Positions 6,801 through 50,447 of a stretch of 64,000 bases of DNA are shown here, piece by piece. The first letter of the stretch is position 1, and every line of letters begins with the position of its first letter. The stretch is from Massilia sp. W12. Lineage in GTDB: Bacteria; Pseudomonadota; Gammaproteobacteria; Burkholderiales; Burkholderiaceae_D. The notes beneath the pieces are model-generated. The model saw only the letters and a list, made by a program, of their open reading frames with translations. It was not told the origin of the DNA and searched no databases. The stretch spans positions 2,170,001-2,234,000 of the forward strand of contig NZ_CP147776.1 in NCBI RefSeq assembly GCF_037300705.1, read 5' to 3'. The position numbers and the translations under genes were made by a program.

Positions 6801-6862
6801 CGCACGACTCCCGGTTAATTCAAAAAAATAAACCCAAAAAATGGCGCAAGGCATTTGCCTCC

Positions 6863-25295: not shown

Positions 25296-25322
25296 TTATC
25301 GGCATTGGCAAACCTGACTTTA
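25296..25322 (-). promoter_or_regulatory. FliA (sigma-28) promoter of fliD
   Basis: On the minus strand it reads TAAAGTCA, 11 bases, GCCGATAA, against the consensus TAAAGTTT-N11-GCCGATAA. The -10 is perfect, the -35 differs at two bases and the spacing is exact. It ends 37 bases upstream of the GTG start. Confidence 0.88.
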
Positions 25323-26077: not shown

Positions 26078-27535
26078 TTAACCGCGCAACAGCGACAATA
26101 CGCCGTTGGGCAGAGAGTTGGCCTGCGCCAACATCGCTGTACCGGCCTGCTGCAGGATCTGGCCACGGGTCAGTTTTGCTGTTTCCGAGGCGAAGTCAGT
26201 ATCCTGAATCCGGCTGCGCGATGCAGACAGGTTTTCAGACGTGGTTTGCACACTCACAACCGCGCTTTCAAAACGTGATTGCAATGCGCCGTAGGTAGCG
26301 CGCTGGCCATTCACTGCCGCCAAACCGGAGTCCACAATCTTCAGTGCGGCTTGAGCGCCGGACACGGTTGAGACGTCAACCGTCGAGATCGTGTTGAGGG
26401 TGGCGGAAGCGCCGGTGAAGTCAGTTGCAGTAATCGTGCCGCCCACAGCAAAACCCTTGTCAGAATTCAAACGCACGTAACCGATCGAGGTGGTGGAGTT
26501 GGTCGCGCCGCCGGCCACGGTGTAAGCCGCGCCCTGATTCGTGCCATCCGCCGCCAGGTTTTGATTGTCAAACGAAGCGGTTGCGTTCGTGCTGTTATTC
26601 TGAATCGAGATGTTATTGCCGGTGGAGTTGGTCAGGATGATGCCGTTGCTGGCGTCATTGATCTTGGCCGACACGCCGGTTTTGGAAGAAGCGTCATTGA
26701 TCGCCGACACTGCAGCAGCCAGACCGCCGCTGGTGTTGGAGGTCACAGCAAAGGACACGTTGGCCGCAGTTGCGTTGTCCGAGGTGATCGCCAGAGAATA
26801 AGATTCACCTGCGGTGAAGCTCAACTGGGTTTTGGTTTCGGCGTCCGCTGTCACACCGGTCACTGCTGCATAGCCGTTTACAGTGGCGGCCACTGTTTTT
26901 GCAGTGTCCGAGGCTGTTACCGTCACAGACTGGGTGGACAAACCTTGAATGTCGAACGTGCCGGCAGTGTAAGCCACTGCAGCAGTATCGCCAGCCGCCA
27001 CGCCATTGGTGCGGTATTCATTATTGCCGTAGTTATTGGTGCGGAAGTTGGCGGTGGTGGCGGTAATGGTCTGGCCGGCATTCGCGCCGACTTGGAACTG
27101 CGCCGAACCAAAGCTGCCGTCGAGCAATTTGAGGCCGTTGAATTCCGAAGTTTGCGCAATACGGTCGGCTTCGTTCAAGAGCTGACCGACTTCAGCCTGG
27201 ATCGCTTTACGGTCGCCGGCTGAGTTCGTCGCATTCGCGGATTGCACCGCCAGTTCGCGCACACGCTGCAGAATGTCGCCGGTGGATTGCAACGAGCCTT
27301 CAGCAGTTTGCAGCAGCGAGATACCGTCGTTGGAATTGCGCTTGGCCTGATCCAGACCGCGGATTTGCGACGTGAAGCGTTCGGAAATCGCCAAGCCTGC
27401 AGCGTCGTCTTTTGCACTGTTAATACGCAAACCGGAAGACAGCCGTTGCAAAGAAGTGGACAGGGCCGATTGCGAGGTGTTGAGGTTGCGTTGTGCATTC
27501 AACGACGAGATATTGGTATTAATTACTGCAACCAT
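26078..27535 (-). CDS. fliC: Flagellin FliC
   Basis: This is a 485-residue filament subunit. The N-terminal D0/D1 region is canonical (INTNISSLNAQRNLNTSQSAL, LSSGLRINSAKDDAAGLAIS, RGLDQAKRNSNDGISLLQTAEG), and so is the C-terminus (FESAVVSVQTTSENLSASRSRIQDTDFASETAKLTRGQILQQAGTAMLAQANSLPNGVLSLLRG). The middle 170-400 is variable, Ala/Ser/Thr/Asn-rich and a candidate region for O-glycosylation. AAAGGAGAAATACC precedes the ATG. It is transcribed from the FliA-type promoter at 27722-27748 with a leader of about 180 nt. Confidence 0.97.
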   Translation of the reverse strand: MVAVINTNISSLNAQRNLNTSQSALSTSLQRLSSGLRINSAKDDAAGLAISERFTSQIRGLDQAKRNSNDGISLLQTAEGSLQSTGDILQRVRELAVQSANATNSAGDRKAIQAEVGQLLNEADRIAQTSEFNGLKLLDGSFGSAQFQVGANAGQTITATTANFRTNNYGNNEYRTNGVAAGDTAAVAYTAGTFDIQGLSTQSVTVTASDTAKTVAATVNGYAAVTGVTADAETKTQLSFTAGESYSLAITSDNATAANVSFAVTSNTSGGLAAAVSAINDASSKTGVSAKINDASNGIILTNSTGNNISIQNNSTNATASFDNQNLAADGTNQGAAYTVAGGATNSTTSIGYVRLNSDKGFAVGGTITATDFTGASATLNTISTVDVSTVSGAQAALKIVDSGLAAVNGQRATYGALQSRFESAVVSVQTTSENLSASRSRIQDTDFASETAKLTRGQILQQAGTAMLAQANSLPNGVLSLLRG

Positions 27536-27721: not shown

Positions 27722-27748
27722 TAGACGGCGCATCCTGGCAAAACTTTA
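27722..27748 (-). promoter_or_regulatory. FliA (sigma-28) promoter of fliC
   Basis: On the minus strand it reads TAAAGTTT, 11 bases, GCCGTCTA. The -35 matches the consensus perfectly, the -10 matches GCCG then diverges (consensus GCCGATAA), and the spacing is exact. It implies a leader of about 180 nt before the fliC ATG. Confidence 0.85.
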
Positions 27749-27929: not shown

Positions 27930-28003
27930 AGAAACGTGTCCCGGAATGCGGAAATAATTGTTAACAAGTGAGATTTTCATGCAAAACAATTTGCACTCCG
28001 GCC

Positions 28004-28030
28004 TAAAGTTCGCAAGAACACAGACGTTAA
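28004..28030 (+). promoter_or_regulatory. Candidate FliA (sigma-28) promoter of the octapeptide-repeat gene
   Basis: It reads TAAAGTTC, 11 bases, GACGTTAA: 7/8 in the -35 and 6/8 in the -10 against TAAAGTTT-N11-GCCGATAA, with exact spacing. It ends 146 bases upstream of the ATG at 28177 on the same strand. Confidence 0.55.
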
Positions 28031-28176
28031 GAAGGCAAGCGCAGTCTCGGCTGAAGTTGTGAAGGCAGCGGCAGCAAGAGTATTCGGTAGGGCGGTGAGC
28101 CGGGAAGTGAGTAAGGACCGTTTCCTGTAGCCCCTTGTTAAACGGGAACTATCTAGTAGTACCAAGGAGAAGAAAA

Positions 28177-31100: not shown

Positions 31101-34100
31101 GCTGGGCACTACAGCCTTTGTCGAACTGACTACCAGCCAGATTGGCGGCCTGCGCAGCTCGCAAGTGGCGGCGCTGTCCACCACCCAGCTCAATGTGCTG
31201 ACCACCAGTCAGGCGGTGTCGATGGAAACCACCGATGTCGCGGCCTTGCGCTCGACGCAGGTGGCGGTGCTCGGATCTTCTGCCGTGGCGGCGTTTGACA
31301 CCAGTCAGATCACAGCCTTGACCACCAGCGCTGTGGCGGCCTTGTCCACGACCAGCGTCTCCGGTCTGGCCACCACCCAAATCGACGCCTTGCTGACGCG
31401 TCAGGTGGCGGCTTTCACCACCACCCAGTTGACGACCCTGGGCACGACGCAATTCGCCGCGATCGGCACCAGCGCCATCAACGCCTTGCGCACCGCGCAA
31501 ATCGCCGCCCTCGGCACCTCGGTGGTCGAAGCCATGACTTCCAGCCAGTTTGGCGCACTGTCCACCAGCGGCCTGGCTGCGATGGGCACCACCAATGTGT
31601 CGGTGTTGGGCACCACTCAGGTGGATGTCATGACGACGGCGCAGGCAGCCGGCTTGCGCACTGCGCAAATCGCCGCGCTCGGCACCTCGGCGGTTGAAGG
31701 CTTGTCCACCTCCAACTTGAGCGCCTTGCGCAGCAGCCAGATTGCGGCCTTGGGCACCACCGCCGTGACCGCGCTGACTTCCAGCCAGATCGGTTCCTTG
31801 CGCAGCTCGCACATCGCCGGCATGACCACGGGTCAGATTGCCGCCCTGGGCACTTCGCAGCTGGTGGAAATCAACACATCCGGCATCGCCGCAATGCGCA
31901 CCGCGCAAGTGGCGGCCTTGGGCACCACGGCGGTCGGAGCGCTGAGCACTACGCAGATCCAGGCGCTCACCACAGCAGCTATCGTGGCGCTGGGCACCAG
32001 CAATGTGGCGGCCCTGGGCACGACGCAAGTCGATGCCTTCCTGACCCGTCATGTGGCGGCGCTGACCACTGCGGCATTGAGCAATATGGGCACCTCGGCT
32101 GTGGCCGCAATCCAGACCTCGGGTGTGGCGGCCTTGACCACGGCGCAGGCAGCCGCGCTGACCACCAGCCAGGTTGAAGCCTTGACCACCAGCCAGGTGA
32201 TGGCGGTGGAAACGGCGGACTTCGCGGCCTTGGGCACATCAAATGTGGCGGCGCTGACCACCTCGCAAGTCGATGTGCTGACCACGGCGCAAGTGGCGAA
32301 TATGCGCACCGCTCAGGTGTTTGCGCTGGAAACCTCGGATCTGGTGGCGCTCTCCACGGCCAATGTGGCGGCGCTTACCACCGCCGGCATCGCGGCCATG
32401 AGCACCACGCAAGTGGTTGAATTGACCACCAGTCAAATCGAAGGTATGCGGACTTCGCAAGTGGCGGCCATGACCACCACCCAGGTTTCCTCACTGGGCA
32501 CCTCGCAGATTGCGGTGATGGAAACCAGTGATGTGGCGGCCTTGCGCACCGCGCAGATCGCAGCTCTGGGCACTTCGGCGGTCTCGACTCTGGGCACCAG
32601 TCAGATTCAAGCACTGGGCACCAGCGCCACGGCGGCGATCACCACCTCCGGTATTGAGTCGCTTGGCACGACGCAGATTGAAGCCTTGTTGACGCGTCAG
32701 GTGGCGGCCTTCACCACCAGCCAATTCACCGCGCTGGGCACCAGCCAGGTGGTGGCGATAAGTACGGCCTCGATTGCAGCGCTGCGCACCGCGCAAGTGG
32801 CGGCCCTGGGCACCTCGGCGATCGAAGCCCTGACCACCTCGCAAATCCAGGTGATGACCACCGCCGCCTTCGCTGCGATGAACACCTCGGGTGTGGCGAC
32901 GCTCGGTTCGACCCAGGTTGATTCGATGACCAGCGCGCAACTGGCCGGTCTGCGCACCGCGCAAGTGGCGGCGCTGACCACCACGGCGGTGGCGGCAATC
33001 GCCACCAGCAGCCTGGCGGCGATGAGCTCGACCCAGATCAATGCGCTGGGCACCACCGCCTTCGTCGAACTGACCACCAGTCAGATCGAAGCGCTGCGCA
33101 GCTCGCAAGTGGCGGCGCTGTCCACCACCGCGATTGCAGCCTTGACCACCAGTCAGGCGGTCGCGCTGGAAACCATCGACCTGTTGGCGATGCGCACCTC
33201 GCAGATTGTGGCGATTGGCACCTCGGCGCTGTCGAACTTCACGACCAGCCAGATCGCGGCGATGTCCACCCGCCAGGTGGAAGCGCTGACCACGACGCAG
33301 ATTGCAAATCTGACCACAACCCAGATTTCCTACCTGCAGATGGGTACGCCGGTGGTGCTGGATGTGAACGGCGACGGGGTCATGACCAGCAGCATCTCCT
33401 CCGGCGTGCAGTTCGATCTGTTCGGCTCCGGTCAGGCAGTCGCCACCGGCTGGGTGGATAAGAACGACGGCTTGCTGGCGATGGATCGGGATGGCGACGG
33501 CATGATCAGCAGCGGTACTGAGTTGTTCGGCTCGGCCACCACCCTGTCCAACGGTCAGAAAGCGCATGACGGTTATCAAGCCTTGCGCGATCTGGATCAG
33601 AACAAGGATGGCGTGATCGATAAGAATGACGCCGCCTTCGAAGATCTGCGCGTCTGGGTCGATGGCAACGGCGACGGCGTCAGCCAGGCTGGTGAAGTCA
33701 AGAGCCTGGAAGCGATGGGCATCGCCAAGATCAACACCCATGCCGATAAGGCAGCGGTGAAGAACAACGGCAACTGGGTGGGCTTGACCTCAAGCTACGA
33801 AACGGTTGACGGTAAGAGCCATGCCACCGCCGACGTCTGGTTCGTGGCCGACAAGAACGGCAAGGCTGACACCTTGCGCGATCAGGTCAGCAGTCTGGCG
33901 CAAGGCATCAGCGGCTTCCAGGAAGCGCTCAAGGCCGGCGACACCGCCAAGCTCAATCAATTGCTGCAAGGCAGTGAAGTGAGCAAGACCCTGGCGGCCA
34001 ACCAGCTCAGCGTGGCGCAAATGGTGGATCTGCTCAAGCAGTTCGATGCCGGCAAGTCGCATCAACATGCTGCGGTGGATCTGGGTAATAAACACGAGCT

Positions 34101-34143
34101 TGATAACCCGTTCGCCAAAGGCATCCTGGGTATCAAACACTAA
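28177..34143 (+). CDS. Giant octapeptide-repeat protein, likely type I secretion cargo
   Basis: This 1,988-residue protein starts at ATG 28177, with AAGGAG 8 bases upstream (MASILDG...). From residue 9 to 1720 it consists only of octapeptides of the type G/T/R-T-S/T-Q-I/V-x-A-L/M, 214 in a row without an insertion or deletion. The last 268 residues form a calcium-binding-like C-terminal domain: PVVLDVNGDGVMTSS, FDLFGSG, GWVDKNDGLLAMDRDGDG, GTELFGSAT, LDQNKDGVIDKNDAAFEDLRVWVDGNGDGVSQAGE. This domain is known from RTX/hemolysin-type secreted proteins. There is no Sec signal, and an HlyB/HlyD pair lies downstream, so secretion by that system is likely. The function is unknown. The fold of the repeats (beta-solenoid or short-helix solenoid) cannot be decided by eye. 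It is very rich in Ser and Thr, hence a possible glycosylation target of the nearby cluster. Confidence 0.85.
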   Translation: MASILDGMTTSQIAELTTAQIAALGTSDYATMSTSQVGALTTTQITAIKTAQIAALSSAGISALTTSHIDVLSTSQVNAFRTSQLASMGTSQVVAITTTDLASMRTSQIVALGTTNIAELGTSQISALTTSQTANLTTGQVNALGTTQIEAMDTADVAALRSAQVAALGTSAVSTFTTSQFQALSTNAVANMGTSNVAALTTTQIDAILTRQLAALTTASVSNLGTSQLVAINSGAIAALTTAQSAALGSTQVEALTTAQIAAMETADMAAVNSSGIAALGTSQIDVMTTAQTANLRTAQLTALGTTAIAAVTTSNFMVLGTTAIAALGTSAVAALTTSQMEVMKTSQFAAMRTSQIVELGTSQFAAVGTSNIAAIRTAQIAALGTTVVESLSTSQIAALTTGAIASMGTSNAAALGTTQVDALLTRQVAAFTTSQLSNLGTSAVAAITTGGIAAFTTAQAAALTTSQVEALTTSQVGAMETADFAALNTSNIAALTTSQIDVLTTAQVANMRTSQVVALETSDLVALSTSNVAEIRTTGLAAMGTTQVVELTTSQIAALRSSQVAAMTTTQVSSLGTSQMAAMETTDVAALRTAQVAALGSSAVAALDTSQITAFGSSSIAALSTTSVAALGTTQIDSMLTRHVAAFTTSQITSLGTTQFTAIGTTAISALRTAQIAALGTTVVEAMTSSQFGALSTSGLAAMGTSNVAVLGTTQVDAMTTAQAAGLRTAQIAALGTSAVQGLSTSNLSALRSSQVAALGTTAVEALTTSQIGSLRSSHIAGMTTGQIAALGTTQLVEINTSGIAALRTAQVAALGTTAVEALTTTQIQALTTGAIAALGTSNVAALGTTQIDALLTRQVAALTTAELSNLGTSAVAAIQTSGVAALTTAQAAALTTSQVEALTTSQVMAMETADFAALGTSNIAALGTSQYDVLTTAQVANMRSAQVAALETSDLVAISTTNLAEMRTSNLIVLGTTAFVELTTSQIGGLRSSQVAALSTTQLNVLTTSQAVSMETTDVAALRSTQVAVLGSSAVAAFDTSQITALTTSAVAALSTTSVSGLATTQIDALLTRQVAAFTTTQLTTLGTTQFAAIGTSAINALRTAQIAALGTSVVEAMTSSQFGALSTSGLAAMGTTNVSVLGTTQVDVMTTAQAAGLRTAQIAALGTSAVEGLSTSNLSALRSSQIAALGTTAVTALTSSQIGSLRSSHIAGMTTGQIAALGTSQLVEINTSGIAAMRTAQVAALGTTAVGALSTTQIQALTTAAIVALGTSNVAALGTTQVDAFLTRHVAALTTAALSNMGTSAVAAIQTSGVAALTTAQAAALTTSQVEALTTSQVMAVETADFAALGTSNVAALTTSQVDVLTTAQVANMRTAQVFALETSDLVALSTANVAALTTAGIAAMSTTQVVELTTSQIEGMRTSQVAAMTTTQVSSLGTSQIAVMETSDVAALRTAQIAALGTSAVSTLGTSQIQALGTSATAAITTSGIESLGTTQIEALLTRQVAAFTTSQFTALGTSQVVAISTASIAALRTAQVAALGTSAIEALTTSQIQVMTTAAFAAMNTSGVATLGSTQVDSMTSAQLAGLRTAQVAALTTTAVAAIATSSLAAMSSTQINALGTTAFVELTTSQIEALRSSQVAALSTTAIAALTTSQAVALETIDLLAMRTSQIVAIGTSALSNFTTSQIAAMSTRQVEALTTTQIANLTTTQISYLQMGTPVVLDVNGDGVMTSSISSGVQFDLFGSGQAVATGWVDKNDGLLAMDRDGDGMISSGTELFGSATTLSNGQKAHDGYQALRDLDQNKDGVIDKNDAAFEDLRVWVDGNGDGVSQAGEVKSLEAMGIAKINTHADKAAVKNNGNWVGLTSSYETVDGKSHATADVWFVADKNGKADTLRDQVSSLAQGISGFQEALKAGDTAKLNQLLQGSEVSKTLAANQLSVAQMVDLLKQFDAGKSHQHAAVDLGNKHELDNPFAKGILGIKH
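28201..33336 (+). repeat. 214 in-frame octapeptide repeats with 648-bp and 1,296-bp higher-order periods
   Basis: The region is 5,136 bp, exactly 214 x 24. The marker octad with LTR-[QH]-[LV]-AA occurs at 28801, 29449, 30097, 30745, 31393, 32041 and 32689, every interval exactly 648 bp (27 octads). Units starting at 30097 and 31393 are nearly identical. Units at 29449, 30745 and 32041 form a second class. So the array alternates with a 1,296-bp period. Confidence 0.95.
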
Positions 34144-34544: not shown

Positions 34545-36689
34545 ATGCAAGAGAAATTTCCACATACCGTCGTGCAATGTCTGACAGCGGTGGCGCAGCA
34601 CCATGGCTTGCAAATCAATCCTGAACGATTGATTGATGACTATGCCTTGCGCGCCGAAGAGCCGCAAGACGCGTTGATCTTGCGCATGGCGGCTGATATC
34701 GGCTTGAAAGCCAGCGTCACCCATTTGAGCTGGCAAGGCTTGCTCTCGCAACAGGGCGTGTTTCCTTTTTTAGCGCGCTTGCAAAATCAGCGCGCCGTGA
34801 TTGTGGTAGGGGTGCGCGGCGAGGGGGAACAGGCCAAAGTTGCGCTGCTTGATCCGCTGGAAAACGATGCCGGCATTATTTTGCTCTCGGAAGAGCAATT
34901 TTCCACCCAATGGAAAGGGCAGGTCATCTTCTTAAAGCGCAAACACGCGCTGACCGATCCGAATCAACCGTTTTCCCTGCGTTGGTTCATCCCGGAAATC
35001 CTGAAACAAAAAGCCGCCTTCCGCGATATTGCCTTAGCCGCCATCGCCATGCACTTTCTGGCCCTCTCTTCGCCGGTATTTTTCCAGCTGGTGATTGATA
35101 AAGTGCTGGTGCACCAAAGCCTGTCCACCCTGACTGTGCTGGGCGTGGGCGTGATTTTGGCGCTGGCGTTTGACGCCGGTTTCAGCTTTTTGCGCCAGAT
35201 ACTGACCTTGGCCGCCACTAATAAGATAGACATCCGCATCACGCGCCGCACTTTTTCCCACTTGCTCTCGCTGCCGATTGATTATTTTGAAACCAATACC
35301 GCTGGCGTCATTACGCGCCACATGCAGCAGCTGGAAAAAATCCGTAATTTCCTCACCGGGCGCCTGTTTTTCACCGGCCTGGATTGCACCGCCTTGCTGA
35401 TTTTCTTACCGATTCTGTTCAGCTATTCCGTCAAGCTGGCCATGATTGTGCTGTTTTTCACCCTCATCATCAGCATCATTGTGGCGCTGATGGTGCCGCC
35501 GTTTCAGCGCCGCTTAAATGATTTGTACTCCGCCGAAGGGCGCCGTCAGGCCATGCTGGTGGAAACCATACACGGCATGCGCACTGTGAAAGCGCTGGCC
35601 TTGGAGCCGGCCCAGCGCCGCGTCTGGGATCAGCGTTCCGCCGAAGCGATTCAAATGCATTACCGGGTCGGCCAGATCTCGATTACCGGCAGCTCGATCA
35701 CCGATTTTTTAGGCAAATTGCTGCCGGTGGTGATCATCATCATCGGCGCGCAGGACGTTTTCGAGCAAAACCTGACTGTCGGCGCCTTGATCGCGTTCCA
35801 GATGATCTCCGGGCGCGTTGTCTCGCCGCTGTTGCAAATCGTCAGCCTGGTGAATGAATATCAGGAAACCGCCTTATCCGTGCGCATGCTGGGCGAAGTC
35901 ATGAACCGCGCGCCCGAAGGACGCGCCGGGGCAGGGGGCTTGCGCCCGCAATTACAAGGCGAAATCAGCTTTGATGAAGTGACCTTCCGCTATCCAGGCG
36001 CCGCCAACAGCGCGTTAAACCGCGCCAGCTTCACCATCGGCGCCGGGCAAGTGGTGGGGATTGTCGGCAGAAGCGGCTCCGGCAAAACCACCGTCACCAA
36101 ATTGATCCAGGGCTTGTACGGCGTGCAGGAAGGCATTGTGCGTTTTGACGGGGTGGATGCGCGCGAAATTGAGCTGTCCCATTTGCGGCGGCAGGTCGGC
36201 GTGGTGCTGCAGGAAAATTTCCTCTTCCGTGGCACGGTGCGGGAAAACATTTGCGCCGCCAAGCCTGACGCCACCTTTGAAGAAATTGTGGCCGCCGCGC
36301 AAGCTGCTGGCGCCGATGAATTCATCGAACGCCTGGCGCAAGGTTACGACACCTTGCTGGAAGAAAACGCCTCGAACCTGTCCGGTGGGCAAAAACAGCG
36401 CTTATCCATTGCGCGCTCCTTGCTGGCCAAGCCGAGAATCTTGATTTTGGACGAAGCCGCCAGCGCGCTCGACCCTGAAAGCGAAGCGATTTTTATCCGC
36501 AATCTGTCAAAAATCGCGATTGGCCGCACCGTCGTCATGATTTCGCACCGCTTATCGACCTTAGTCAATGCCGACCGCATCCTGGTCATGCAATATGGGC
36601 GCTTGATGGACAGTGGCCGGCATGAAGAATTATTGCAGCGTTGTCAAACCTACCAACAGCTATGGAACCAGCAAACAAGCCACCTGTGA
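34545..36689 (+). CDS. Type I secretion ABC exporter (HlyB/LapB-like)
   Basis: This 714-residue inner-membrane exporter has three parts. The N-terminal C39-peptidase-like domain (residues 5-130) has no catalytic Cys: the position before CLTAVAQHHG reads HTVVQ, so it should recognise rather than cleave cargo. Six transmembrane segments follow (about 160-430). The nucleotide-binding domain has Walker A GRSGSGKTT, signature LSGGQKQR, Walker B ILILDEAAS and the H-loop MISHRLST. The ATG at 34545 is chosen for AGGA about 9 bases upstream; an ATG 8 codons earlier is possible. It is the natural exporter for the repeat protein upstream and perhaps for the Ig-repeat protein. The outer-membrane TolC-type partner is not in the window. 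Confidence 0.92.
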   Translation: MQEKFPHTVVQCLTAVAQHHGLQINPERLIDDYALRAEEPQDALILRMAADIGLKASVTHLSWQGLLSQQGVFPFLARLQNQRAVIVVGVRGEGEQAKVALLDPLENDAGIILLSEEQFSTQWKGQVIFLKRKHALTDPNQPFSLRWFIPEILKQKAAFRDIALAAIAMHFLALSSPVFFQLVIDKVLVHQSLSTLTVLGVGVILALAFDAGFSFLRQILTLAATNKIDIRITRRTFSHLLSLPIDYFETNTAGVITRHMQQLEKIRNFLTGRLFFTGLDCTALLIFLPILFSYSVKLAMIVLFFTLIISIIVALMVPPFQRRLNDLYSAEGRRQAMLVETIHGMRTVKALALEPAQRRVWDQRSAEAIQMHYRVGQISITGSSITDFLGKLLPVVIIIIGAQDVFEQNLTVGALIAFQMISGRVVSPLLQIVSLVNEYQETALSVRMLGEVMNRAPEGRAGAGGLRPQLQGEISFDEVTFRYPGAANSALNRASFTIGAGQVVGIVGRSGSGKTTVTKLIQGLYGVQEGIVRFDGVDAREIELSHLRRQVGVVLQENFLFRGTVRENICAAKPDATFEEIVAAAQAAGADEFIERLAQGYDTLLEENASNLSGGQKQRLSIARSLLAKPRILILDEAASALDPESEAIFIRNLSKIAIGRTVVMISHRLSTLVNADRILVMQYGRLMDSGRHEELLQRCQTYQQLWNQQTSHL

Positions 36690-38014
36690 AGGCGCAGCGC
36701 AAGGATTCCCTGGCGGTGGAATTCCTGGCCGATGCCGACGAATTGGAGCGCACCCCGCTGCCGCGTATGGCGCGCTTAACCCTGCATCTGATGTTGCTGG
36801 CTTTTATCAGCTTCATTTTGTGGGCCAATTTCTCTGAAGTGGATCGGGTTGTGATCGCCAAGGGCAAGCTGGTCAATCCTGCCCCTAACATCATCGTCCA
36901 GCCCTTGGGCACTTCGATTATTCAAAGCATCGATGTGCGCGTCGGGCAGGTCGTGCGCAAAGGGGAAAAACTGGCGATGCTTGACGCCACCTTCACCCAG
37001 GCCAATGAAAGCCAGATCAAAAACCGCATCAAGAGCCTGGAAATTCAGCAGCGCACCTTGCGCAATGAGTTGGAAGGACTCGCTTTGCACGACGGCGGCA
37101 AAGACGCCGACGCCAATTTGCAAAACAATTTATCCAGCGAACGGCGCGCCAATCTCTCGGCCCAGCGCAAACGCCTGGAAGAAGGCAAGGCGCGCATCAG
37201 CGCCACCCAGGAAAGCAATAAACGCGAGCAAAGCGTACTGCAAGACCGCATGCGCGCGGCGCGCGAAATGGAAAGCATGCAAGAAAAACTGGTCGAGCAA
37301 AACTTCGGCGCCAAAGCGCAATTGCTGGCTGCGCGCGACAGACGCCTGGAAATCGAACGCGATTTGCTCACCGCGAAAAACCGCGAACAGGAATTAAAGC
37401 GCGATCTGGCCGCATTGGATGCCGAACTGTCCGCCTTGGAAAAAGGCTGGCGGCAAAAGCAAATGGAAGAGTTGCTGACCATCACGCGCGAGCGCGATGC
37501 GCTGGCCGAAGAGTTGCAAAAAGCGAATAAGCGCAGCCGCCTGGAAACCCTGTACGCACCGGCTGACGGCGTGGTGCTGGAAATCACCAAGCTTTCGCAA
37601 GGCTCGATCATCAAAGAAGCCGAACCCATGCTCACCATCGTGCCGCTGGGCGCTGAGATGGAAGCGGATATCCAGATTGATTCGGTGGATGTGGGCTATG
37701 TCAAACCGGGCGATAAAGTGCACGTCAAGCTCGACGCCTTTCCCTTCCAGCGCCATGGCATGCTGGATGGCGAAGTGCGCACCATCAGCGAAGACGCATT
37801 CCGCCGCGAAACCAATTCCGCGCCCGGCATGGAAGCGTATTACCAGACCAGGGTTGCGATGAAGCATTTGAAATTGAAAAACATGGGCCCGCGCACCCGG
37901 CTGTTGCCGGGCATGACCTTGAGTGCGGAAATAGTGGTAGGCAAACGTTCGGTGATGTCTTATTTGATCTGGCCCTTGACCAAGGCGCTGGATGAATCGA
38001 TCCGTGAGCCGTGA
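36662..38014 (+). CDS. Type I secretion membrane fusion protein (HlyD-like)
   Basis: This 450-residue adaptor bridges the ABC exporter and an outer-membrane channel. It has a short cytoplasmic N-terminus, one transmembrane helix (LTLHLMLLAFISFILWANF, about residues 42-60), a lipoyl-like segment (GKLVNPAPNIIVQPLGTSIIQSIDVRVGQVVRKGEKLAML), long coiled coils (about 110-290) and the C-terminal HlyD motif LYAPADGVVLEITKLSQGSIIKEAEPMLTIVPLG. Its ATG lies inside the end of the exporter gene (28-base overlap), so the two are translationally coupled. Confidence 0.92.
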   Translation: MEPANKPPVKAQRKDSLAVEFLADADELERTPLPRMARLTLHLMLLAFISFILWANFSEVDRVVIAKGKLVNPAPNIIVQPLGTSIIQSIDVRVGQVVRKGEKLAMLDATFTQANESQIKNRIKSLEIQQRTLRNELEGLALHDGGKDADANLQNNLSSERRANLSAQRKRLEEGKARISATQESNKREQSVLQDRMRAAREMESMQEKLVEQNFGAKAQLLAARDRRLEIERDLLTAKNREQELKRDLAALDAELSALEKGWRQKQMEELLTITRERDALAEELQKANKRSRLETLYAPADGVVLEITKLSQGSIIKEAEPMLTIVPLGAEMEADIQIDSVDVGYVKPGDKVHVKLDAFPFQRHGMLDGEVRTISEDAFRRETNSAPGMEAYYQTRVAMKHLKLKNMGPRTRLLPGMTLSAEIVVGKRSVMSYLIWPLTKALDESIREP

Positions 38015-38056: not shown

Positions 38057-39076
<1,020 letters not shown>

Positions 39077-39090
39077 GAGGAATCTGAATC

Positions 39091-39795
39091 ATGAAAATCG
39101 CCATCATCCCGGCGCGCGGCGGCAGCAAACGCATTCCGCGCAAAAACCTCAAAGAATTTTGCGGCAAGCCCATCATCGCGTATTCGATTGACGCGGCGCG
39201 CGCATCGGGCTTGTTTGATCATGTGATTGTCTCGACTGACGATGAGGAAATCGCCGCGCTGGCGCGTGCGCTGGGCGCAGAGACACCCTTTATGCGCCCG
39301 GCGGAATTGGCGAACGACCACGCCACCACCGTGCCGGTGATCCGGCATGCGCTGGAATGGGTGGCGCAACACATGGGGCCGGTTGAATACGGTTGCTGCA
39401 TTTACGCCACCGCCCCGTTTGTGCAGGCATCCGCCTTGCGCGCCGCGCATGACAAGCTGATCCAGAACAAAGTGACAGGCTATGTGTTTTCCGCCACCAC
39501 CTTCCCGTTCCCGATTCAGCGCGCCTTCAAGCTGCACGGCAATGGTTTGGTTGAGATGTTCCACCCGGAAAACTACAACACCCGCTCGCAGGATCTGGAA
39601 GAAGCCTATCAGGACGCCGGCCAATTTTACTGGGGCAGCATGGAAGCTTATATGAGCGGAAAAATCTTTTTCGCCACCGATTCCATGGCCCATGTGCTGC
39701 CGCGCTATATGGTGCAAGACATCGACACCCCGGAAGACTGGAAACGCGCCGAACTGATGTACCGCGTTTTGCAGCAAAATGGCGATTTGGCTTGA
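39091..39795 (+). CDS. pseF: Pseudaminic acid cytidylyltransferase, PseF type
   Basis: This 234-residue CMP-sugar synthetase activates a nonulosonic acid with CTP. Motifs are IPARGGSKRIPRKNLKEFCGKP at the N-terminus, VSTDDEEIA, and the PseF-typical FSATTFPFPIQRAFKL, RSQDLEEAYQDAGQFYWG and VQDIDTPEDWKRAELMY. GGAGG lies about 9 bases before the ATG. It is spaced 14 bp after pseB, so the two are likely co-transcribed. Confidence 0.9.
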   Translation: MKIAIIPARGGSKRIPRKNLKEFCGKPIIAYSIDAARASGLFDHVIVSTDDEEIAALARALGAETPFMRPAELANDHATTVPVIRHALEWVAQHMGPVEYGCCIYATAPFVQASALRAAHDKLIQNKVTGYVFSATTFPFPIQRAFKLHGNGLVEMFHPENYNTRSQDLEEAYQDAGQFYWGSMEAYMSGKIFFATDSMAHVLPRYMVQDIDTPEDWKRAELMYRVLQQNGDLA

Positions 39796-39813
39796 ACCAG
39801 TGAAGGGATGTGG

Positions 39814-40707
39814 ATGGAAAGGATTTTGATCACCGGCGCCAGCGGTTTATTGGGCAGCAGCCTGCTGCCGGCAATGCGCGCCGCCGGATGGGACGTGACA
39901 GGGCAGGGCCGTAAGGCCGGGACGCACGCCAACTACTGGCAAGGTGGACTGGACAGCCGCCAGGCGGTGCACGCCATGCTCGATGCGCTGCAACCGCAGG
40001 CTGTCATCAATCTGGCCGCGCTGACCAATGTCGATCTGTGCGAAGAACAACCGCAGCAAGCGTATGACTTGAATGTGCGCCTGGTGCAAGATTTGGCGTC
40101 CTGGCTGGCCCCGCGCGATGGCTATTTAGTGCACATCTCCAGCGACCAGGTGTATGACGGCAGCGTCTTGGGCGCGGCGGAAAGCGGCAGCACAGAAGCG
40201 CAATTGTTTTTGCAAAACACCTACGCCTTTTCCAAAGTGGCTTCCGAATTGGCGGCGCAAGCCTGTCACAGCGCCTGCCTGCGCAGTAATTTTTATGGCA
40301 AAAGCGCGTGTCCCGGACGCCCGAGTTTTTCGGATTGGATCATCAACAGCTTACGCCAGGGGCAGCAAATCAAGGTCTTTCAAGACGTCTGGTTTTCGCC
40401 CTTGTCCATCGCTAGCCTGTGCCGCCTGATTCCGCAAGTGCTGCAAGCGCGCTTGTGCGGCGTGTACAACCTGGGCAGCCGGGAAGGCATGAGCAAGGCC
40501 GATTTTGCCTTTGCGCTGGCGCAGGCGGCAGGTTTGCCAACTGAGGGATTGCAGCGCAGCGACAGCGCGCAAGCCGCCTTACGCGCCAAGCGGCCACGCG
40601 ATATGCGCATGGATTGCGGCAAACTGGAACAGGATTTACAGCAAGCCATGCCACGGCTGGCAGACGAAATCACACAATGCGGGAGAGAATATCGTGCAAC
40701 GCCCTGA
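39814..40707 (+). CDS. NAD(P)-dependent sugar epimerase/reductase (RfbD-like SDR)
   Basis: About 297 residues with an N-terminal Rossmann motif ITGASGLLGSSLL and the extended-SDR features of the dTDP-4-dehydrorhamnose reductase family: VINLAALTNVDLCEEQPQQAYDLNV, ISSDQVYDG, and a YAFSKVASE (YxxxK) active site. It probably reduces or epimerises an intermediate or builds a second sugar of the cluster; the exact substrate is unknown. The ATG at 39814 has AAGGG at a proper distance; the ATG at 39808 is too close to it. It is the third gene of the cluster. Confidence 0.75.
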   Translation: MERILITGASGLLGSSLLPAMRAAGWDVTGQGRKAGTHANYWQGGLDSRQAVHAMLDALQPQAVINLAALTNVDLCEEQPQQAYDLNVRLVQDLASWLAPRDGYLVHISSDQVYDGSVLGAAESGSTEAQLFLQNTYAFSKVASELAAQACHSACLRSNFYGKSACPGRPSFSDWIINSLRQGQQIKVFQDVWFSPLSIASLCRLIPQVLQARLCGVYNLGSREGMSKADFAFALAQAAGLPTEGLQRSDSAQAALRAKRPRDMRMDCGKLEQDLQQAMPRLADEITQCGREYRATP

Positions 40708-41773
40708 CACCGAACTCAATATTTCCGGCCGCCTGATCGGCGAAAACCACCCGACTTACTTCATCGCCGACATTGCCGCCAACCATGATGGCGACTTGGA
40801 GCGGGCCAAGGATTTGATCTATCAAGCCGCCGAAGCCGGCGCTGACGCCGCCAAATTCCAGCATTTCCAAGCCAAAACCATCGTCAGCGACCATGGTTTT
40901 AAAAGTCTGGGCGGACAGCAATCGCACCAGGCGAAATGGAAAAAGAGCGTGTTTGAAGTGTATCAGGACGCCAGTGTGCCGCTGCTGTGGACGCAAACCC
41001 TGAAAGAAACCTGCGACGCCGCCGGCATCACCTTTTTCACCAGTCCTTATGACAAGGCGCTGGTGGATCATATCGACCCCTATGTGCCGGCGTTTAAAAT
41101 CGGCTCCGGCGACATCACCTGGCTCGACATCATCACCCACATTGCAGCCAAGCAAAAACCCTACATCATCGCCAGCGGCGCCTCCAGCATGGATGAGGTG
41201 GACCGCGCAGTGCAAGCCGCGCTGGCGGTGAATACCCGGCTCGCGCTCTTGCAATGCAATACCAACTACACCGCCAGCCTGGAAAATTTCAAATACATCC
41301 AACTGAATGTCTTGAAATGCTATCGCATCATGTACCCGGAAATGGTGCTGGGCTTGAGCGACCACACCCTGGGCCACACCACTGTGCTGGGCGCTGTCGC
41401 CCTGGGCGCGCGCATTATTGAAAAACATTTCACCGACGACACCAAGCGCGAAGGGCCGGACCATGGTTTTTCGATGGACCCGCAAGCCTGGCGCGCCATG
41501 GTGGACGCCACGCGCGAACTGGAAAACGCGCTGGGCAATGGCATCAAACGGGTCGAAGAAAACGAAAAACAAACCGCGATATTGCAGCGCCGCGCAGTGC
41601 GCGTGACACGCGATCTGGCCGCCGGCAGCGTTCTGACGGCAGACGATGTGACAGTGTTGCGGCCCTGTCCCACCGGCGCAATCAGCGCGGCGGATGAACA
41701 AGCCGTGCCAGGCCGCACCCTGCGCCGCGAAGTCAAGGGCGGCGAACATTTGAGCTGGGGCGATTTGGCATGA
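40694..41773 (+). CDS. NeuB-family nonulosonic acid synthase
   Basis: About 359 residues from GTG 40694 (GGGAGAG upstream; the frame is open further left only through the preceding gene). The catalytic TIM-barrel carries FIADIAANHDGDLERAKDLIYQAAEAGADAAKFQHF, FFTSPYDKALVDHIDPYVPAFKIGSGDITWL, LLQCNTNYTAS, LGLSDHTLGH and IIEKHFT. A C-terminal SAF (antifreeze-like) domain follows (VTRDLAAGSVLTADDVTVLRP...GRTLRREVKGGEHL). The family condenses a six-carbon sugar with phosphoenolpyruvate. It differs clearly from classical PseI and NeuB at the N-terminus, so the product may be a less common nonulosonate. It overlaps the previous gene by 14 bases. Confidence 0.88.
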   Translation: MQRPDTELNISGRLIGENHPTYFIADIAANHDGDLERAKDLIYQAAEAGADAAKFQHFQAKTIVSDHGFKSLGGQQSHQAKWKKSVFEVYQDASVPLLWTQTLKETCDAAGITFFTSPYDKALVDHIDPYVPAFKIGSGDITWLDIITHIAAKQKPYIIASGASSMDEVDRAVQAALAVNTRLALLQCNTNYTASLENFKYIQLNVLKCYRIMYPEMVLGLSDHTLGHTTVLGAVALGARIIEKHFTDDTKREGPDHGFSMDPQAWRAMVDATRELENALGNGIKRVEENEKQTAILQRRAVRVTRDLAAGSVLTADDVTVLRPCPTGAISAADEQAVPGRTLRREVKGGEHLSWGDLA

Positions 41774-42468
41774 CGCAAAGCGGCGCTCAAGTCGTGGCGC
41801 AAGTCGCCATCATCATCCCGGCTTTGAATGAGGCCGCCACGATTGCCCAAGTGGTGCAAAAAGTGGCGGCCTATGGCCAGCCGATTGTGGTGAATGACGG
41901 TTCGCAAGACGCTACCGCAGAACTGGCGCGCAAGGCCGGCGCGATTGTGGTCAGCCATGCTGAAAATCGCGGCTACGACCGCGCCTTGGCCAGCGGTTTC
42001 GCGCAAGCCGCGCAGATGGGCTTTGCCTTTGCCATCACCATCGACGCCGACGGCCAGCACAACCCCGGCCAGCTGCGCGAATACATTCAGCTCTTGCAGC
42101 AAGGCCATGACCTGGTGCTGGGCGCGCGCGACCGCCTGCAGCGCTTCTCAGAATATGTGTTCGCCTGGGTCGGGCGGGCCGTGTGGCGCGTGCCGGATCC
42201 CTTGTGCGGCATGAAGGGCTACCACATGCGCCTGTACGCCGCATTGGGACACTTTGACAGCTTTGAATCGATCGGCACCGAATTGGCGATTCGCGCAGTG
42301 GCCAGCAAGGTGAACGTGGCGCATACCGCCGTCATCACGCGTGACAGACTGGACGCGCCGCGCTTTGCGCGCCGCTTGCGCGCCAATTTTAAAATTTTGC
42401 GCGCACTGGCGATTTTGCTCGGCCTGCAGCTGCGCGGCCGCTTAGCCATCAAGGAATTGACGCCATGA
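41770..42468 (+). CDS. GT2 family glycosyltransferase (dolichyl-phosphate mannose synthase-like)
   Basis: This 232-residue GT-A glycosyltransferase has VAIIIPALNEAATIAQVV, VVNDGSQDAT and the metal-binding DADGQHNP (DxD-type). No transmembrane helices are evident. Such single-domain GT2 enzymes transfer an activated sugar to a polyprenyl phosphate or to another acceptor. Here it may attach a sugar of the cluster to a protein or lipid. It is linked by ATGA overlaps to the genes on both sides (41770 and 42465). Confidence 0.82.
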   Translation: MTQSGAQVVAQVAIIIPALNEAATIAQVVQKVAAYGQPIVVNDGSQDATAELARKAGAIVVSHAENRGYDRALASGFAQAAQMGFAFAITIDADGQHNPGQLREYIQLLQQGHDLVLGARDRLQRFSEYVFAWVGRAVWRVPDPLCGMKGYHMRLYAALGHFDSFESIGTELAIRAVASKVNVAHTAVITRDRLDAPRFARRLRANFKILRALAILLGLQLRGRLAIKELTP

Positions 42469-43517
42469 TGACGGACGCAGAACCGGTGCGCGTGGCGATT
42501 ATCGGCTGCGGCCAGATCGGCGCCATGTGGGACAGCCCGCAATCCACGGCGCCGGCATTAACCCATGCCGCCGGCTTTTCCCGCATTCCCGGCGCGCAAT
42601 TGTGCGCGTTTTGCGATACAGATTTAGCGCGCGCGCAACAAGCCGCCGCGCGCTGGGGTGTGGCGCATGCTTATGACGACGTGGCGCAGATGCTGCAGCA
42701 ACAGCGCCCGCACATCGTCACGATTGCCGCCGCCACCCAGGCCAGAATGCGTATTTTGCAACCCTTGCTGGGGCAGGGCGTGCGCCTGCTGGTGCTGGAA
42801 AAACCGCTTGCCGCCACCCTGGAAGAATCGCAAGCCGTGGTGCACGCCTTGCAGCAGGCCGGACAAGCCGCACTGGTGAATTACTCGCGCAACTGGGACA
42901 GTGCATTGCAAACCCTGTTCGCCCACATCCGCGCCCGGCGCTGGGGCCAGATCCAGCGCTTGCAAGCCTGGTATGGCAAAGGCCTTTCCAACAATGGTTC
43001 GCACATGATTGATCTGGTCTGCCAACTGCTGCAAGCGCAGGTCGTGCGGGTGCGCGCAAGCTGCGCCCCGCTGCCGCCGGAAGAAGCGCAGTGGAGCGCC
43101 GGCGCCGGCCAGTCTGCCGATCTGGCGCTGGACTGCAGCCTGGAATATGGCGACGGCGCCCAGCAATGGCGGCTCGATATGCTGGCCACTGATCAGCGCG
43201 ACTTCACCTGTTTTGAGCTGCGCATCATCTTGCAGCAGGCCATCATCGACATCAGCCAGGGCGGGCGCGCCATCAGCCTGCGCGCAGTGCAAGATGATCC
43301 GCATTACGCCAATTACCGCATCCCCGGCCCGGCGCAGGAAATCGCCGGCAGCACACTCGACGCCATGCAAAACATGGCGCAGCAGGCGTTCGACTGGGTG
43401 CGCGGCAGCAGCGAAAAACTGGCATGCGCCCCTGAACAAGCCCTGCAGGTGGCGCACACCGTGCATGCGCTCAAGCGCAGCGCGGCGACCGAATCTGGCA
43501 ACTGGATTGCGCTGTGA
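42465..43517 (+). CDS. Gfo/Idh/MocA-family oxidoreductase
   Basis: This 350-residue protein has an N-terminal Rossmann fold (VAIIGCGQIGAMWD, residues 10-23) and the family motif region LVLEKPLAATLEESQAVV (EKP with the conserved Lys). The GFO_IDH_MocA C-terminal domain contains NNGSHMIDLVCQLL. It oxidises or reduces a sugar hydroxyl or keto group with NAD(P). In nucleotide-sugar clusters such enzymes often work just before a PLP aminotransferase, which is exactly the next gene here. Confidence 0.82.
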   Translation: MMTDAEPVRVAIIGCGQIGAMWDSPQSTAPALTHAAGFSRIPGAQLCAFCDTDLARAQQAAARWGVAHAYDDVAQMLQQQRPHIVTIAAATQARMRILQPLLGQGVRLLVLEKPLAATLEESQAVVHALQQAGQAALVNYSRNWDSALQTLFAHIRARRWGQIQRLQAWYGKGLSNNGSHMIDLVCQLLQAQVVRVRASCAPLPPEEAQWSAGAGQSADLALDCSLEYGDGAQQWRLDMLATDQRDFTCFELRIILQQAIIDISQGGRAISLRAVQDDPHYANYRIPGPAQEIAGSTLDAMQNMAQQAFDWVRGSSEKLACAPEQALQVAHTVHALKRSAATESGNWIAL

Positions 43518-43536
43518 GCGCAGAGAGGAAGAGCAA

Positions 43537-44838
43537 ATGAGCAAATTGGCAATCAATGGCGGCACGCCGGTGCGCGTGGCCCCGTTTCCGATGCGGCGCA
43601 CCATGGGGGAAGCCGAAAAACAGGCAGTCATGGCGGTGATGGACACGGACAAAATTTCCGGCTTCTTCGGCAGTCCCGGCGACCAATGGTTGGGCGGCGA
43701 ATATGTGCAAGCCTTCGAGCGCAAATGGGCCGAGGCGTATGGCTTTGCGCACGCCATCAGCGTCAATTCCTGGAGCACCGGCCTGATGACCGCGATTGGC
43801 GCGATTGGCATAGAGCCGGGCGATGAAGTCATCGTCTCGCCCTACACCATGTCGGCCTCGGCCACCTCGATATTGTTTTATGGCGGCATCCCGGTTTTCG
43901 CTGACATCGACCCGGATTCCTTCAATATCACAGCCGACACCATCGCCAAAGTGATCAGCCCGCGCACCAAGGCGATTATGGTGGTGCACATCTTCGGCCA
44001 GGCGGCGGACATGGATCCGATTCTGGCCTTGGCGCGCCAGCACGGCTTAAAAGTGATCGAAGACGCCGCGCAAGCGCCCGGCGTGCGCTACAAAGGGCGG
44101 CCAGTCGGCTGCTTAGGCGATATCGGCGGCTTTTCTCTGAATTACCACAAGCACATTCACACCGGCGAAGGCGGGGTCTTGGTGACGCAGGATGCGCAAC
44201 TGGCCAAACGCTGCCAACTGATCCGCAACCATGCCGAAAACCTGCTCGAATACACCGGCATGGAAGACATGTGCAATATGATAGGCAGCAATTACCGCTT
44301 AACCGAGATCCAGGCGGCGATTGGCAGCGCGCAACTGGATAAACTCGAAGGTTTATTGGCGCTGCGCCAGCGTTTAGCCGCGCATCTGAGCGCCGCCTTG
44401 CAAGGCTTGCCCGGCGTGACCCCGCCCAAAACAGATCCAAACTGCGGCCACGCCTATTATCTTTACCCGATCAAATATGACGCCGCCGTCACCGGCGTCT
44501 CGCGCGCCGACTTGGTGCGCGCCGTGAATGCCGAATTGCCGCACGCCGCGCACTGGGAGCAAACCGTGCTGGCGCAAGCCTATGTCAAGCCGCTCTATTT
44601 AGCCGCGCTGTACCAAAAGAAAATCGCGCTTGGCAGCAAAGGTTTTCCCTGGACGTTGCAGCCGGAGGTGGAGTACAACTACGCCAAAGGCAGCTGCCCG
44701 GTGGTGGAAAAAATGCATGAAGAGCAAATGATTTTCACCCCGATTGTGCGTGAACCGCTCACTGAGCGCGATATGGACGATGTGGCGGCGGCTTTTCATA
44801 AAGTGCTGCACAACCTGGACCAGATTCCACGCGCATAA
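43537..44838 (+). CDS. DegT/DnrJ/EryC1/StrS-family sugar aminotransferase
   Basis: This 433-residue PLP enzyme has GGTPVR near the N-terminus, SWSTGLMTAIGAIGIEPGDEVIVSPYT, VHIFGQAADMDPI, and IEDAAQAPG, followed by the Lys-containing FSLNYHKHIHTGEGGV (Schiff-base Lys). It transfers an amino group to a keto sugar. It is not a close match to the classical PseC start, so the amino position may differ from pseudaminate. The ATG at 43537 has GAGGAAGAG upstream; the frame to the left belongs to the preceding gene's shadow. It probably acts with the Gfo/Idh enzyme 19 bp upstream. Confidence 0.88.
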   Translation: MSKLAINGGTPVRVAPFPMRRTMGEAEKQAVMAVMDTDKISGFFGSPGDQWLGGEYVQAFERKWAEAYGFAHAISVNSWSTGLMTAIGAIGIEPGDEVIVSPYTMSASATSILFYGGIPVFADIDPDSFNITADTIAKVISPRTKAIMVVHIFGQAADMDPILALARQHGLKVIEDAAQAPGVRYKGRPVGCLGDIGGFSLNYHKHIHTGEGGVLVTQDAQLAKRCQLIRNHAENLLEYTGMEDMCNMIGSNYRLTEIQAAIGSAQLDKLEGLLALRQRLAAHLSAALQGLPGVTPPKTDPNCGHAYYLYPIKYDAAVTGVSRADLVRAVNAELPHAAHWEQTVLAQAYVKPLYLAALYQKKIALGSKGFPWTLQPEVEYNYAKGSCPVVEKMHEEQMIFTPIVREPLTERDMDDVAAAFHKVLHNLDQIPRA

Positions 44839-47115: not shown

Positions 47116-50100
47116 TCACATACCCTTTTGCCGCTTTGCGCTCTCAGCAAAACCATAGCGGCATAATTCTTCAAAATTGCGGGGCAAAAGCGTATCTGCG
47201 CAATACGACAAGATTTCTGAAACATGCAGCGAGAAAAATTGCATCAGGCGGTATTGCTCGTAGTCTTTGGCGCCCATGATGGACGGGCCATGTTCACGCA
47301 GCAGAGCATCCATTTGCTCAAATTCTGTTTTCCAATAGATGGCGTATGGAGCGCGCTCTTTGAAACTGAAAATTTTCGCATCCGCCATCACATACACCCG
47401 CACCGCCTGCATAAATTGTGCCGGATCGTGCTGGGCCAGGCGCCAGATTTGCCATAATTCATACATGCAATTCGGTGATCTTAAATAGGCGTCCGATAAA
47501 ATCACAAACACCCTGTCCTGGTGCGTCAAGCGGTTCATGAATGTGCTCAGGCTGTCGCCCAGCTTGACATCGTCTTTGTCGCGCATGATCCGCATGCCTT
47601 GTTGCTGCGCTTGTTCGCACAGCTTGTCCACCATGTTTGTGCTTTGCTCTTCCCATTTATACGACACGGCATAGGTAATGCGGCTTTCATCCGGCGGCTC
47701 GGGGCCGAATTGGGGCTTTTCTGCGTGCTCAGACATGGTTTTTTCCTGTGGGCATTGTTTGAACTGGGCTTGATCGCGCCATTGCCAACGATCATGATCG
47801 AGCATCATCAAAAGTTTTTGCAGCAAACCCTTGGCGTCGCCGCGCTGGGTGCGCAAAATCAAACGGCCACTGAATGCGCCTGTGCTTTCTTGCACAATCA
47901 AGGCCTTGCTTCTGGATGCAAGCTCATACACGCAAACGCCATGGCGCCAATACAAGGCATGTTGGCCGGCTTGGCTGCCAATTTTGGCAATCAGGGTGCG
48001 CATCAAGCCAGGCTGCAGCAAATCATAGTCGAGAATGGATTCTGCAAAAGGCAAATCCGCATCCCATTCGCTGGCAAGTTGGGTGCTGATTTCGGCTCGT
48101 TCAGGCAGGAAATCCGGGGCAAGGTATTCCGCCTCGGATTGATGGCCGGTATTGCGAATGCAAAAAGCAATCCCGCAAGAACACATCATGCCAAGAAATA
48201 ATTTCTGCTCGCTGGCACTGAATTGTTGCCAAGCCCGCAAGGCCAAATCATTGCGGGTAAATCGGCCTTTGGCGTTTTTCAGCCATTGATAACATGTGTC
48301 ACGCTGGAATACGGTGTAAATCGCATCCAAGGCCCAGGCTTGGTCAAGGATGATGCTGTTATCAAACACGCCTGCCTGATAAAACACCAAGCCTGCATGG
48401 TGTAAATAATCCAGCAGCGCAGACGCGGCGCTGACATCGCCATGGCCTTGTGCGCACAATTCGGCAAATTGCGCCTGCGTCACCAGGCGGTGCTGTTTAT
48501 CTGCGCTGGCGCAGTTGTTATCCTGTTCGCGCCAGGCGCATAGCACATCCGCCACACGCTGCCAGCCATTGGGAATATGGGCAGGGTGTTGCGCCATTAA
48601 ATATACATGCGCTTCCTGCAAAGCCTCTTCCAATGCGCTGTGTTTGCGCTTGTTTTTACTGCTGTAGTGCAGGATTTCCAATTGTTTGAATTGCGCCAGC
48701 AGATGCGCCGGCGCCGGCAGCTGGGCGCGCTGTTGCTGCGCCGTTTCGCAACGCGTTTGCACAATCATCACCGGGCATTCGGCGCCGGCATTGCATAAAA
48801 CATAGCGCAACCAATATTCCAGCGTTTGATTATTATGACGCATGCCATATTGGTCGATATGTTCACCGCTTTCACAATCCGGCGACCAGACGATGAGAAA
48901 GGCGGCGCGATTGCGTAAAAACAGGGCATGGGTGCTGTGATAAATATCCTGGCCGCCAAAATCCCAGGCATGCCACGCACTGTCATCAGCTTGCAGGCGC
49001 TGGATTTGCACGCCATGGGTGGAGTCGGCGTTTTCATCAAAATCGATATCACGCAAGCGATTCAATAACTGGGTTTTGCCAACGCGACCATTGCCTAAAA
49101 TCATCAGCTTGGCGCTGCACAAGGGCTTGGCGCCGCTTTGCAAATCATGTAAATAAGCGCGCAGGCGCGGCAGGCAGTTGTCATCATGCCGATGTGACAG
49201 AATTTCGGCTGGCATGTCGGGGAGTTGGCTGTCTTCTGCAATAAGTTCTTCCAGTGCTGGAGAATGCAAAAAAGCTGCATCAGCTGTCTGCAAATGGCAG
49301 CCTGAGATATCCAATTTCCTAAGCTTAGGCAAGCAGGGCGGCAGGGAGGTGATTGCGGTGTAAGAGCAATCCAGCGCGTGCAAAGCCGTCAAAGCGGCAA
49401 GCGGTGCGAGATCGCTGACTTGGGTGCGATAGCAAGTCAGCGATTGCAAAGCCGTCAAAGCGGCAAGCGGCGCGAGATTGCTGACTTGGGTTTCATAGCA
49501 ACTCAGTACTTGTAAAGCCGTCAAAGCGGCAAGCGACGAGAGATCGCTGACTTCGGTGTTCCAGCAATTCAGCTCTTGCAAAGCCGTCAAAGTGGCAAGC
49601 GGCGCGAGATCGCTGATTTGGGTGCTGCTGCAATACAGCTTTTGCAAAGACTTCAAAGCTACAAGCGGCGCGAGATCGCAGACTTCGGTGTAAGAGCAAT
49701 TCAGCTCTTGCAAAGCCGTCAAAGCGGCAAGCGGCGCGAGATCGCTGACTTGGGTGCCGCCGCAATTCAGCTCTTGCAAAGCCGTCAAAGCGGCAAGCGG
49801 TGCGAGATCGCTGACTTTGGTGTAAGAGCAATTCAGCTCTTGCAAAGCCGTCAAAGCGGCAAGCGGCGTGAGATCGCTGACTTGAGTGGCTGAGAAATCC
49901 AGCGATTGCAAAGCCGTCAAAGCGGCAAGCGGCGCGAGATCGCTGGCTTCGGTTTCTGAGCAATCCAGCGATTGCAAAGCCGTCAAAGCGGCAAGCGGCG
50001 CGAGATCGCTGACTTGGGTGGCTGCGCAATTCAGCAATTGCAAAGCCGTCAAAGCGGCAAGCGGCGCGAGATCGCTGACTTGGGTGTGAGCGCAATCCAG

Positions 50101-50349: not shown

Positions 50350-50447
50350 GCCATCCCCCCAATCCGCACACCAGGCCATGCTACCCGTTTTACCCCACAC
50401 TGTCATACAATCGCATATCCCAATTCCCCAACACATCCCGGCCCGCC

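Follow-up and report, generated by a model that had tools for sequence, protein, structure and literature searches.

Divergent from the flagellin gene fliC of Massilia sp. W12 lies a gene for a giant octapeptide-repeat protein, which raises the question of which sigma factor transcribes this gene and what its product would do for a flagellated cell. We analysed the whole 64,000-nucleotide stretch that contains both genes (the window), together with related loci from other genomes; the promoter site, its conservation, the protein family, the secretion genes and the fold prediction were computed. A preliminary description of the window had proposed that a FliA (sigma-28) promoter drives the repeat gene and places it in the late flagellar regulon. 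The reading that we favour, and regard as rather probable, is that the giant protein is transcribed by FliA, is exported by the adjoining ABC/HlyD type I secretion system (T1SS) and probably serves as an adhesin of swimming cells.

A sigma-28-type site upstream of the repeat gene

Direct reading located TAAAGTTC and, 11 bases further on, GACGTTAA, both in the same orientation as the repeat gene (Table 1). As the preliminary description had stated, this site agrees with the sigma-28 consensus TAAAGTTT-N11-GCCGATAA at 13 of 16 positions; its TAAA and GCCGATAA-like elements, read as eight-base elements, stand 11 bases apart in the correct direction. From the end of the site to the ATG of the gene there are 146 bases, and AAGGAG occurs shortly 5' of this ATG. 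The divergent orientation relative to fliC, from which 641 bp separate the repeat gene, and the similar quality of the fliC site were also as described.

Table 1. Positions of the main features in window coordinates.
Feature	Position	Strand	Basis
Sigma-28 type site before fliD, 14/16, 37 bases 5' of fliD	25296..25322	-	consensus scan; fliD by Pfam
fliC (flagellin), divergent from repeat gene	26078..27535	-	Pfam
Sigma-28 type site of fliC, 13/16	27722..27748	-	consensus scan
-35 element, sigma-28 (FliA) type, TAAAGTTC	28004..28011	+	sequence; conserved before related genes
-10 element, GACGTTAA, 11 bases past -35 element	28023..28030	+	sequence
Promoter-to-ATG region, putative untranslated leader of ~140 bases	28031..28176	+	sequence; putative transcript start
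Giant ALTTAQ octapeptide-repeat protein, 1,988 residues	28177..34143	+	PF20080, 1026.1 bits, 64 stretches
Non-repeat C-terminal region, from ~residue 1724	33346..34140	+	sequence
ABC transporter with C39-like domain (type I secretion)	34545..36689	+	Pfam; start by eye
HlyD-type membrane fusion protein	36641..38014	+	Pfam

The window contains three sites with at most three mismatches against 0.10 expected, and three were reached in none of 100 shuffles. The 6.14-Mb genome contains 34 matches at the same threshold and a backwards-pattern control gave 92, and therefore a lone 13/16 match is weak evidence by itself. Chance sites, as reckoned from the genome counts, are estimated at 0.0008 to 0.002 per 300-bp upstream region on one strand. 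Because a single site is weak in the context of a whole genome, independent support was needed.

The consensus does work in Massilia sp. W12: its sole perfect match in the genome ends ~48 bases 5' of a frame identified by eye as flgM, and flhD/flhC are preceded by three sites of 14/16. Nine genome sites have at most two mismatches, and five of these precede flagellar genes (flgM, three before flhDC, and fliD), with the names flgM and flhDC assigned by eye; the other four precede unannotated frames. The genome also encodes FliA (C1:1488614; TIGR02479, 275.7 bits, above the cut-off). A narrower pattern, TAAAGTNN-N11-GMCGWTAM, had just six exact matches genome-wide (flgM, three before flhDC, fliD and the repeat gene); it was designed with the repeat-gene site in view and so provides no independent evidence. 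With GCCG replacing GMCG, the repeat-gene site is one mismatch off, as are two other places in the list.

Comparison with E. coli was based on a FliA matrix built from 12 training sites, hand-picked among the entries examined in the ChIP-seq table of PMC4183435, all of them promoters of known flagellar or FliA-affected genes. The window site scored 15.0 bits and the training sites 14.8-26.7 bits, so the former falls near the bottom of the range of ChIP-mapped E. coli FliA promoters. These promoters, of which the abstract of PMC4183435 counts 52 sites, have the same two elements and spacing as the window site. According to the same source, the -10 element of E. coli fliC is GACGATAA, which shares with the window site a GAC where most have GCC (PMC4183435). 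Unlike the gene set considered here, the E. coli FliA targets in the examined part of the table included no giant secreted repeat protein (PMC4183435).

Elsewhere in the genome (G000:C1:1730699-1730961, L075), three tandem sigma-28-like sites of 14/16 each are packed into 263 bp, and frames recognised by eye as flhD and flhC follow a few hundred bases downstream. Their arrangement suggests possible FliA feedback on the flagellar master regulator.

Recurrence of the site before ALTTAQ genes

The name octapeptide-repeat gene proved right: the product belongs to Pfam family PF20080 (ALTTAQ_rpt), with a score of 1026.1 bits against a curated cut-off of 26.4. The preliminary description had also proposed looking for the site upstream of orthologues. 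We took ALTTAQ genes from named genome contigs and from genomes belonging to the family and order, and searched the 300 bp 5' of 42 start codons for sites. Left out were genes whose start was off the contig or unsure (L010, L012, L014, L020, L055, L059, L110 and the second frames of L062 and L067) and the duplicates L022 (like L019) and L117 (same contig as L009). The start of L109 was set one codon late, with its site shifted by 3 bases. A PF20080 search at an overly strict threshold (0/97) served only to choose genomes by candidate counts. The class sample at E 1e-20 yielded 1 of 369 and the genus sample 1 of 2, in both cases the genome of Massilia sp. W12 itself, and an ALTTAQ search of viral contigs yielded none.

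At a spacing of 11, sites of at least 11/16 were found before 24 of the 42 genes, with 17 reaching at least 12, 11 at least 13 and 5 at least 14, although the genes are not fully independent (L061 and L062 share a genus, and some genomes contribute several genes). At the same four thresholds, the means were 4.1, 0.55, 0.04 and 0 for shuffled upstream regions and 4.1, 0.5, 0.05 and 0 for 200 permuted consensus words. The reverse strand gave 6, 1, 0 and 0, and the maxima over eleven other spacings (6 to 17) were 12, 4, 1 and 1. Examples are a Gallionella MAG (L009, 15/16), a Nitrosomonadales MAG (L011, 14/16), L066 (14/16), and L056 and L061 (13/16 each). Among 150 other genes of the same loci, 16 reached at least 11/16 and 7 at least 12/16, and the only two at 13 were both flagellins.

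An unbiased dyad search of the 42 regions (pairs of 4-base words, spacers of 0-20) ranked TAAA-N15-GCCG first; this is the sigma-28 core, and it was present in 10 of the 42 regions against 0.66 expected. Scoring with the E. coli FliA matrix showed 19 of the 42 regions at 10 bits or more, compared with a mean of 0.78 (at most 3) in shuffles and 0 on the reverse strand. In pairwise comparison of 15 examples, the two boxes were on average 76% and 71% identical and the spacer and flanks 26-28%, with the identity of the boxes inflated because the examples were picked for having or nearly having a site. Because the spacer and flanks are only 26-28% identical, recent common descent is not enough to account for the sites. 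Since the site is conserved before related genes, and with FliA encoded in the genome, the proposed FliA promoter and a place for the repeat gene in the late flagellar regulon gained support at the sequence level.

The site recurred before many ALTTAQ genes and not before all. No site of at least 11/16 was found in the 300 bp upstream of 18 of the 42 genes, among them L068, L057, L060, L063, L107 and L112. Four of the 18 stand second in a tandem pair (L015 9238, L018 13604, L053 12936 and L064 9397) and may ride on the promoter of the first gene. For the first ALTTAQ gene of L064 the site in the 300 bp was poor, and a 13/16 site lies ~396 bases before its start. Two Pseudomonas plasmid loci had 13/16 each, and six alphaproteobacterial plasmid loci (two near-identical) had nothing above 9/16; the plasmid locus L121, in which no ATG was found, was left out of this scoring. 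FliA control thus appears to be a feature of many ALTTAQ genes, frequent and not universal. The L068 gene is a second, larger ALTTAQ gene of the Massilia genome (G000:C1:1554108-1561127), with a best score of 9/16 in the 300 bp.

The repeat protein and its neighbours

The repeats begin at approximately residue 8, a start shared by relatives. AlphaFold2, run with a 19-row alignment on residues 1-320, gave 40 short helices, one per octapeptide, with a mean pLDDT of 93.2, and the protein is accordingly predicted to be a long alpha-helical screw with one short helix per eight residues. The C-terminal region was modelled at low to middling confidence; it has DxNGDG-like segments of calcium-binding look (by eye) and matched no Pfam family at E 0.001. 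A profile of ALTTAQ N-termini matched PDB 9zem, 'HeliScrew4' (E 3.3e-26), which has the same eight-residue period by this profile match, but is short (120 residues) and by its name perhaps a designed protein; a literature search found no paper naming it. Neither Foldseek nor VIA-align returned a close natural solved structure: the best matches were mesothelin (E 1.4e-4, TM 0.33) in the former and Z 8.6 with an rmsd of 11.2 in the latter, a level common for repeats. HeliScrew4 was not among the structure matches listed, perhaps because the entry postdates that structure library.

The plasmid records examined name the relatives only as heme utilization, ice nucleation or hypothetical protein. 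Ice-nucleation repeats are generally regarded as beta-solenoids. The label ice-nucleation protein, carried by a Cereibacter relative, was rejected, as the repeats are predicted to be helical.

The repeat gene is followed by genes for an ABC transporter with a C39-like domain and an HlyD-type protein, a neighbourhood as expected for a T1SS substrate. The open frame of the ABC gene runs from 34359, and comparison with the L062 relative placed its start at 34545. By eye, the catalytic Cys and His of the C39-like domain were not seen. Relatives of this transporter at 66-77% identity stand by ALTTAQ genes in 6 of 56 loci (L015, L055, L059, L062, L064 and L066). In loci with such a transporter or a flagellin, the first ALTTAQ gene had a best site of 14 in L066, 13 in the window and L056, 12 in L062, 11 in L064 and L015, and 10 in L018 and L070; L055 and L059, with starts off the contig, have no score. 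In G057, one contig (L056) breaks off within an ALTTAQ gene that diverges from fliC, and another (L055/L054) ends inside an ALTTAQ gene followed by ABC, HlyD and, further on, pse-like sugar genes. The two contigs may meet there, giving a layout much as in the window.

The window itself has a sugar-biosynthesis run 3' of the secretion genes (38075-44838, +), whose members we take, by eye, to be genes for pseudaminic or a related acid (pseB, pseF, pseI and pseC-like). These genes perhaps serve flagellin glycosylation.

Proposed transcription, export and role of the protein

FliA is freed when FlgM is exported after hook completion. From the observations above we infer that FliA-RNA polymerase would then transcribe late flagellar genes such as fliC and fliD and, from the site at 28004-28030, the ALTTAQ gene, and that read-through from the repeat gene would reach the secretion genes. 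The adjoining ABC/HlyD proteins would export the product. Once outside, it would most likely serve swimming cells as an adhesin, either surface-bound or extracellular. By this account, swimming cells probably make the giant protein together with their flagella. Co-regulation and the neighbouring genes are also what would speak for the roles suggested in the preliminary description, at the filament or in a swim-to-attach switch.

If the promoter is real, the product could also be a companion of the flagellum that decorates or surrounds the filament and is no general adhesin, which we consider unlikely. Such a role would fit the putative FliA control and the position divergent from fliC, seen in the window and also in L066 (order fliC, fliC, ALTTAQ, ABC, HlyD) and L056, as well as the flagellin homologues in 5 of 56 ALTTAQ loci (L015, L018, L056, L066 and, weakly, L070). 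However, the other 51 loci have no flagellin homologue in the fetched stretch, many of these stretches being short or cut by a contig end, and export by the adjoining T1SS would not place the protein in the flagellar channel.

It is very improbable that the match arose by chance and that a housekeeping sigma-70 promoter or another factor transcribes the gene. A sigma-70-like site of 9/12 is present at 27961-27990, the genome holds many chance matches of 13/16 quality, and 18 of the 42 related genes are without a site of 11/16; against this, the sigma-70 scan expects 0.5 such sites by chance, and conservation of the sigma-28 site emerged from the consensus scan, the unbiased dyad search, the E. 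coli matrix and the box-versus-flank identity alike. A LapA/FrhA-type adhesin, which an N-terminal retention module would keep at the outer membrane until LapG, a protease, releases it, is scarcely credible and was rejected: giant repeats, a C39-like ABC transporter and calcium-binding-like C-terminal segments (by eye) would suit it, but the genome gave no match to PF06035 (Peptidase_C93, the LapG family; positive in 1 of 14 control genomes), and the conserved start, with repeats from ~residue 8 and octapeptide helices predicted throughout residues 1-320, leaves no room for the module.

A FliA-transcribed adhesin exported by its neighbouring T1SS has a counterpart in FrhA, the flagellum-regulated hemagglutinin and RTX adhesin of Vibrio cholerae, the repeats of which are not known to be of the ALTTAQ kind. 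Adhesin is also the likeliest role for the ALTTAQ protein, judging by this analogy. FrhA is likewise a giant repeat protein thought to be exported by a T1SS; its N-terminus carries a retention domain and it contains a LapG site, whereas the ALTTAQ protein enters its repeats at once and no LapG was found. In V. cholerae O395, lack of FliA lowers the expression of frhA, which belongs to class 4 of the flagellar hierarchy, and in another strain frhA rose in late stationary phase when FlrA was lost (PMC6890996).

FliA-dependent giant T1SS adhesins are already known in kind, as FrhA shows. For PF20080, no regulator or function was found in the material searched, and a literature search that covered few subscription papers returned no report of its genes recurring behind sigma-28 promoters, no account of the family and no paper with the string ALTTAQ. 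The present analysis supplies the family with a predicted fold, a candidate regulator, a likely route of secretion and a possible modifying enzyme, from which a function can for the first time be proposed and tested. Many such bacteria may accordingly express a giant extracellular protein besides the filament from their late flagellar regulon, which bears on the surface attachment of swimming cells.

The possible modifying enzyme is a family 41 glycosyltransferase (GT41, OGT/SPINDLY type). Matches to it by tblastn with six queries occurred in 24 of 56 ALTTAQ loci, a count that includes six self-matches and several loci sharing a genome or contig, and 6 of 10 neighbouring proteins tested were GT41 by Pfam. 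The window has no GT41 gene, and the Massilia genome has one elsewhere (C1:2720813). Because the ALTTAQ repeats are rich in Thr, cytoplasmic O-glycosylation of the repeats before export is a fair guess. We tentatively raise the possibility that the ALTTAQ proteins of betaproteobacteria and some pseudomonads form a flagellum-companion class: very long alpha-helical screws that would be transcribed by FliA with flagellin, O-glycosylated by a neighbouring GT41 in the cytoplasm of many lineages, exported by a T1SS, and active at or around the filament or as adhesins carried by swimming cells. O-GlcNAc-transferase-like GT41 genes lie near ALTTAQ genes in, among others, L009, L011, L064, L065, L067 and L111.

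Two other large proteins are encoded in the window. Directly after fliR, a gene at 252-6854 (-) encodes a 2,200-residue protein with bacterial Ig-like domains, a SWM_repeat ('putative flagellar system-associated repeat') and a C-terminal DUF4214; no sigma-28 site with at most three mismatches precedes it. The gene at 47116-50478 (-) encodes a bacterial Roco-like protein of 1,120 residues with leucine-rich repeats and Roc, COR-A and TIR domains.
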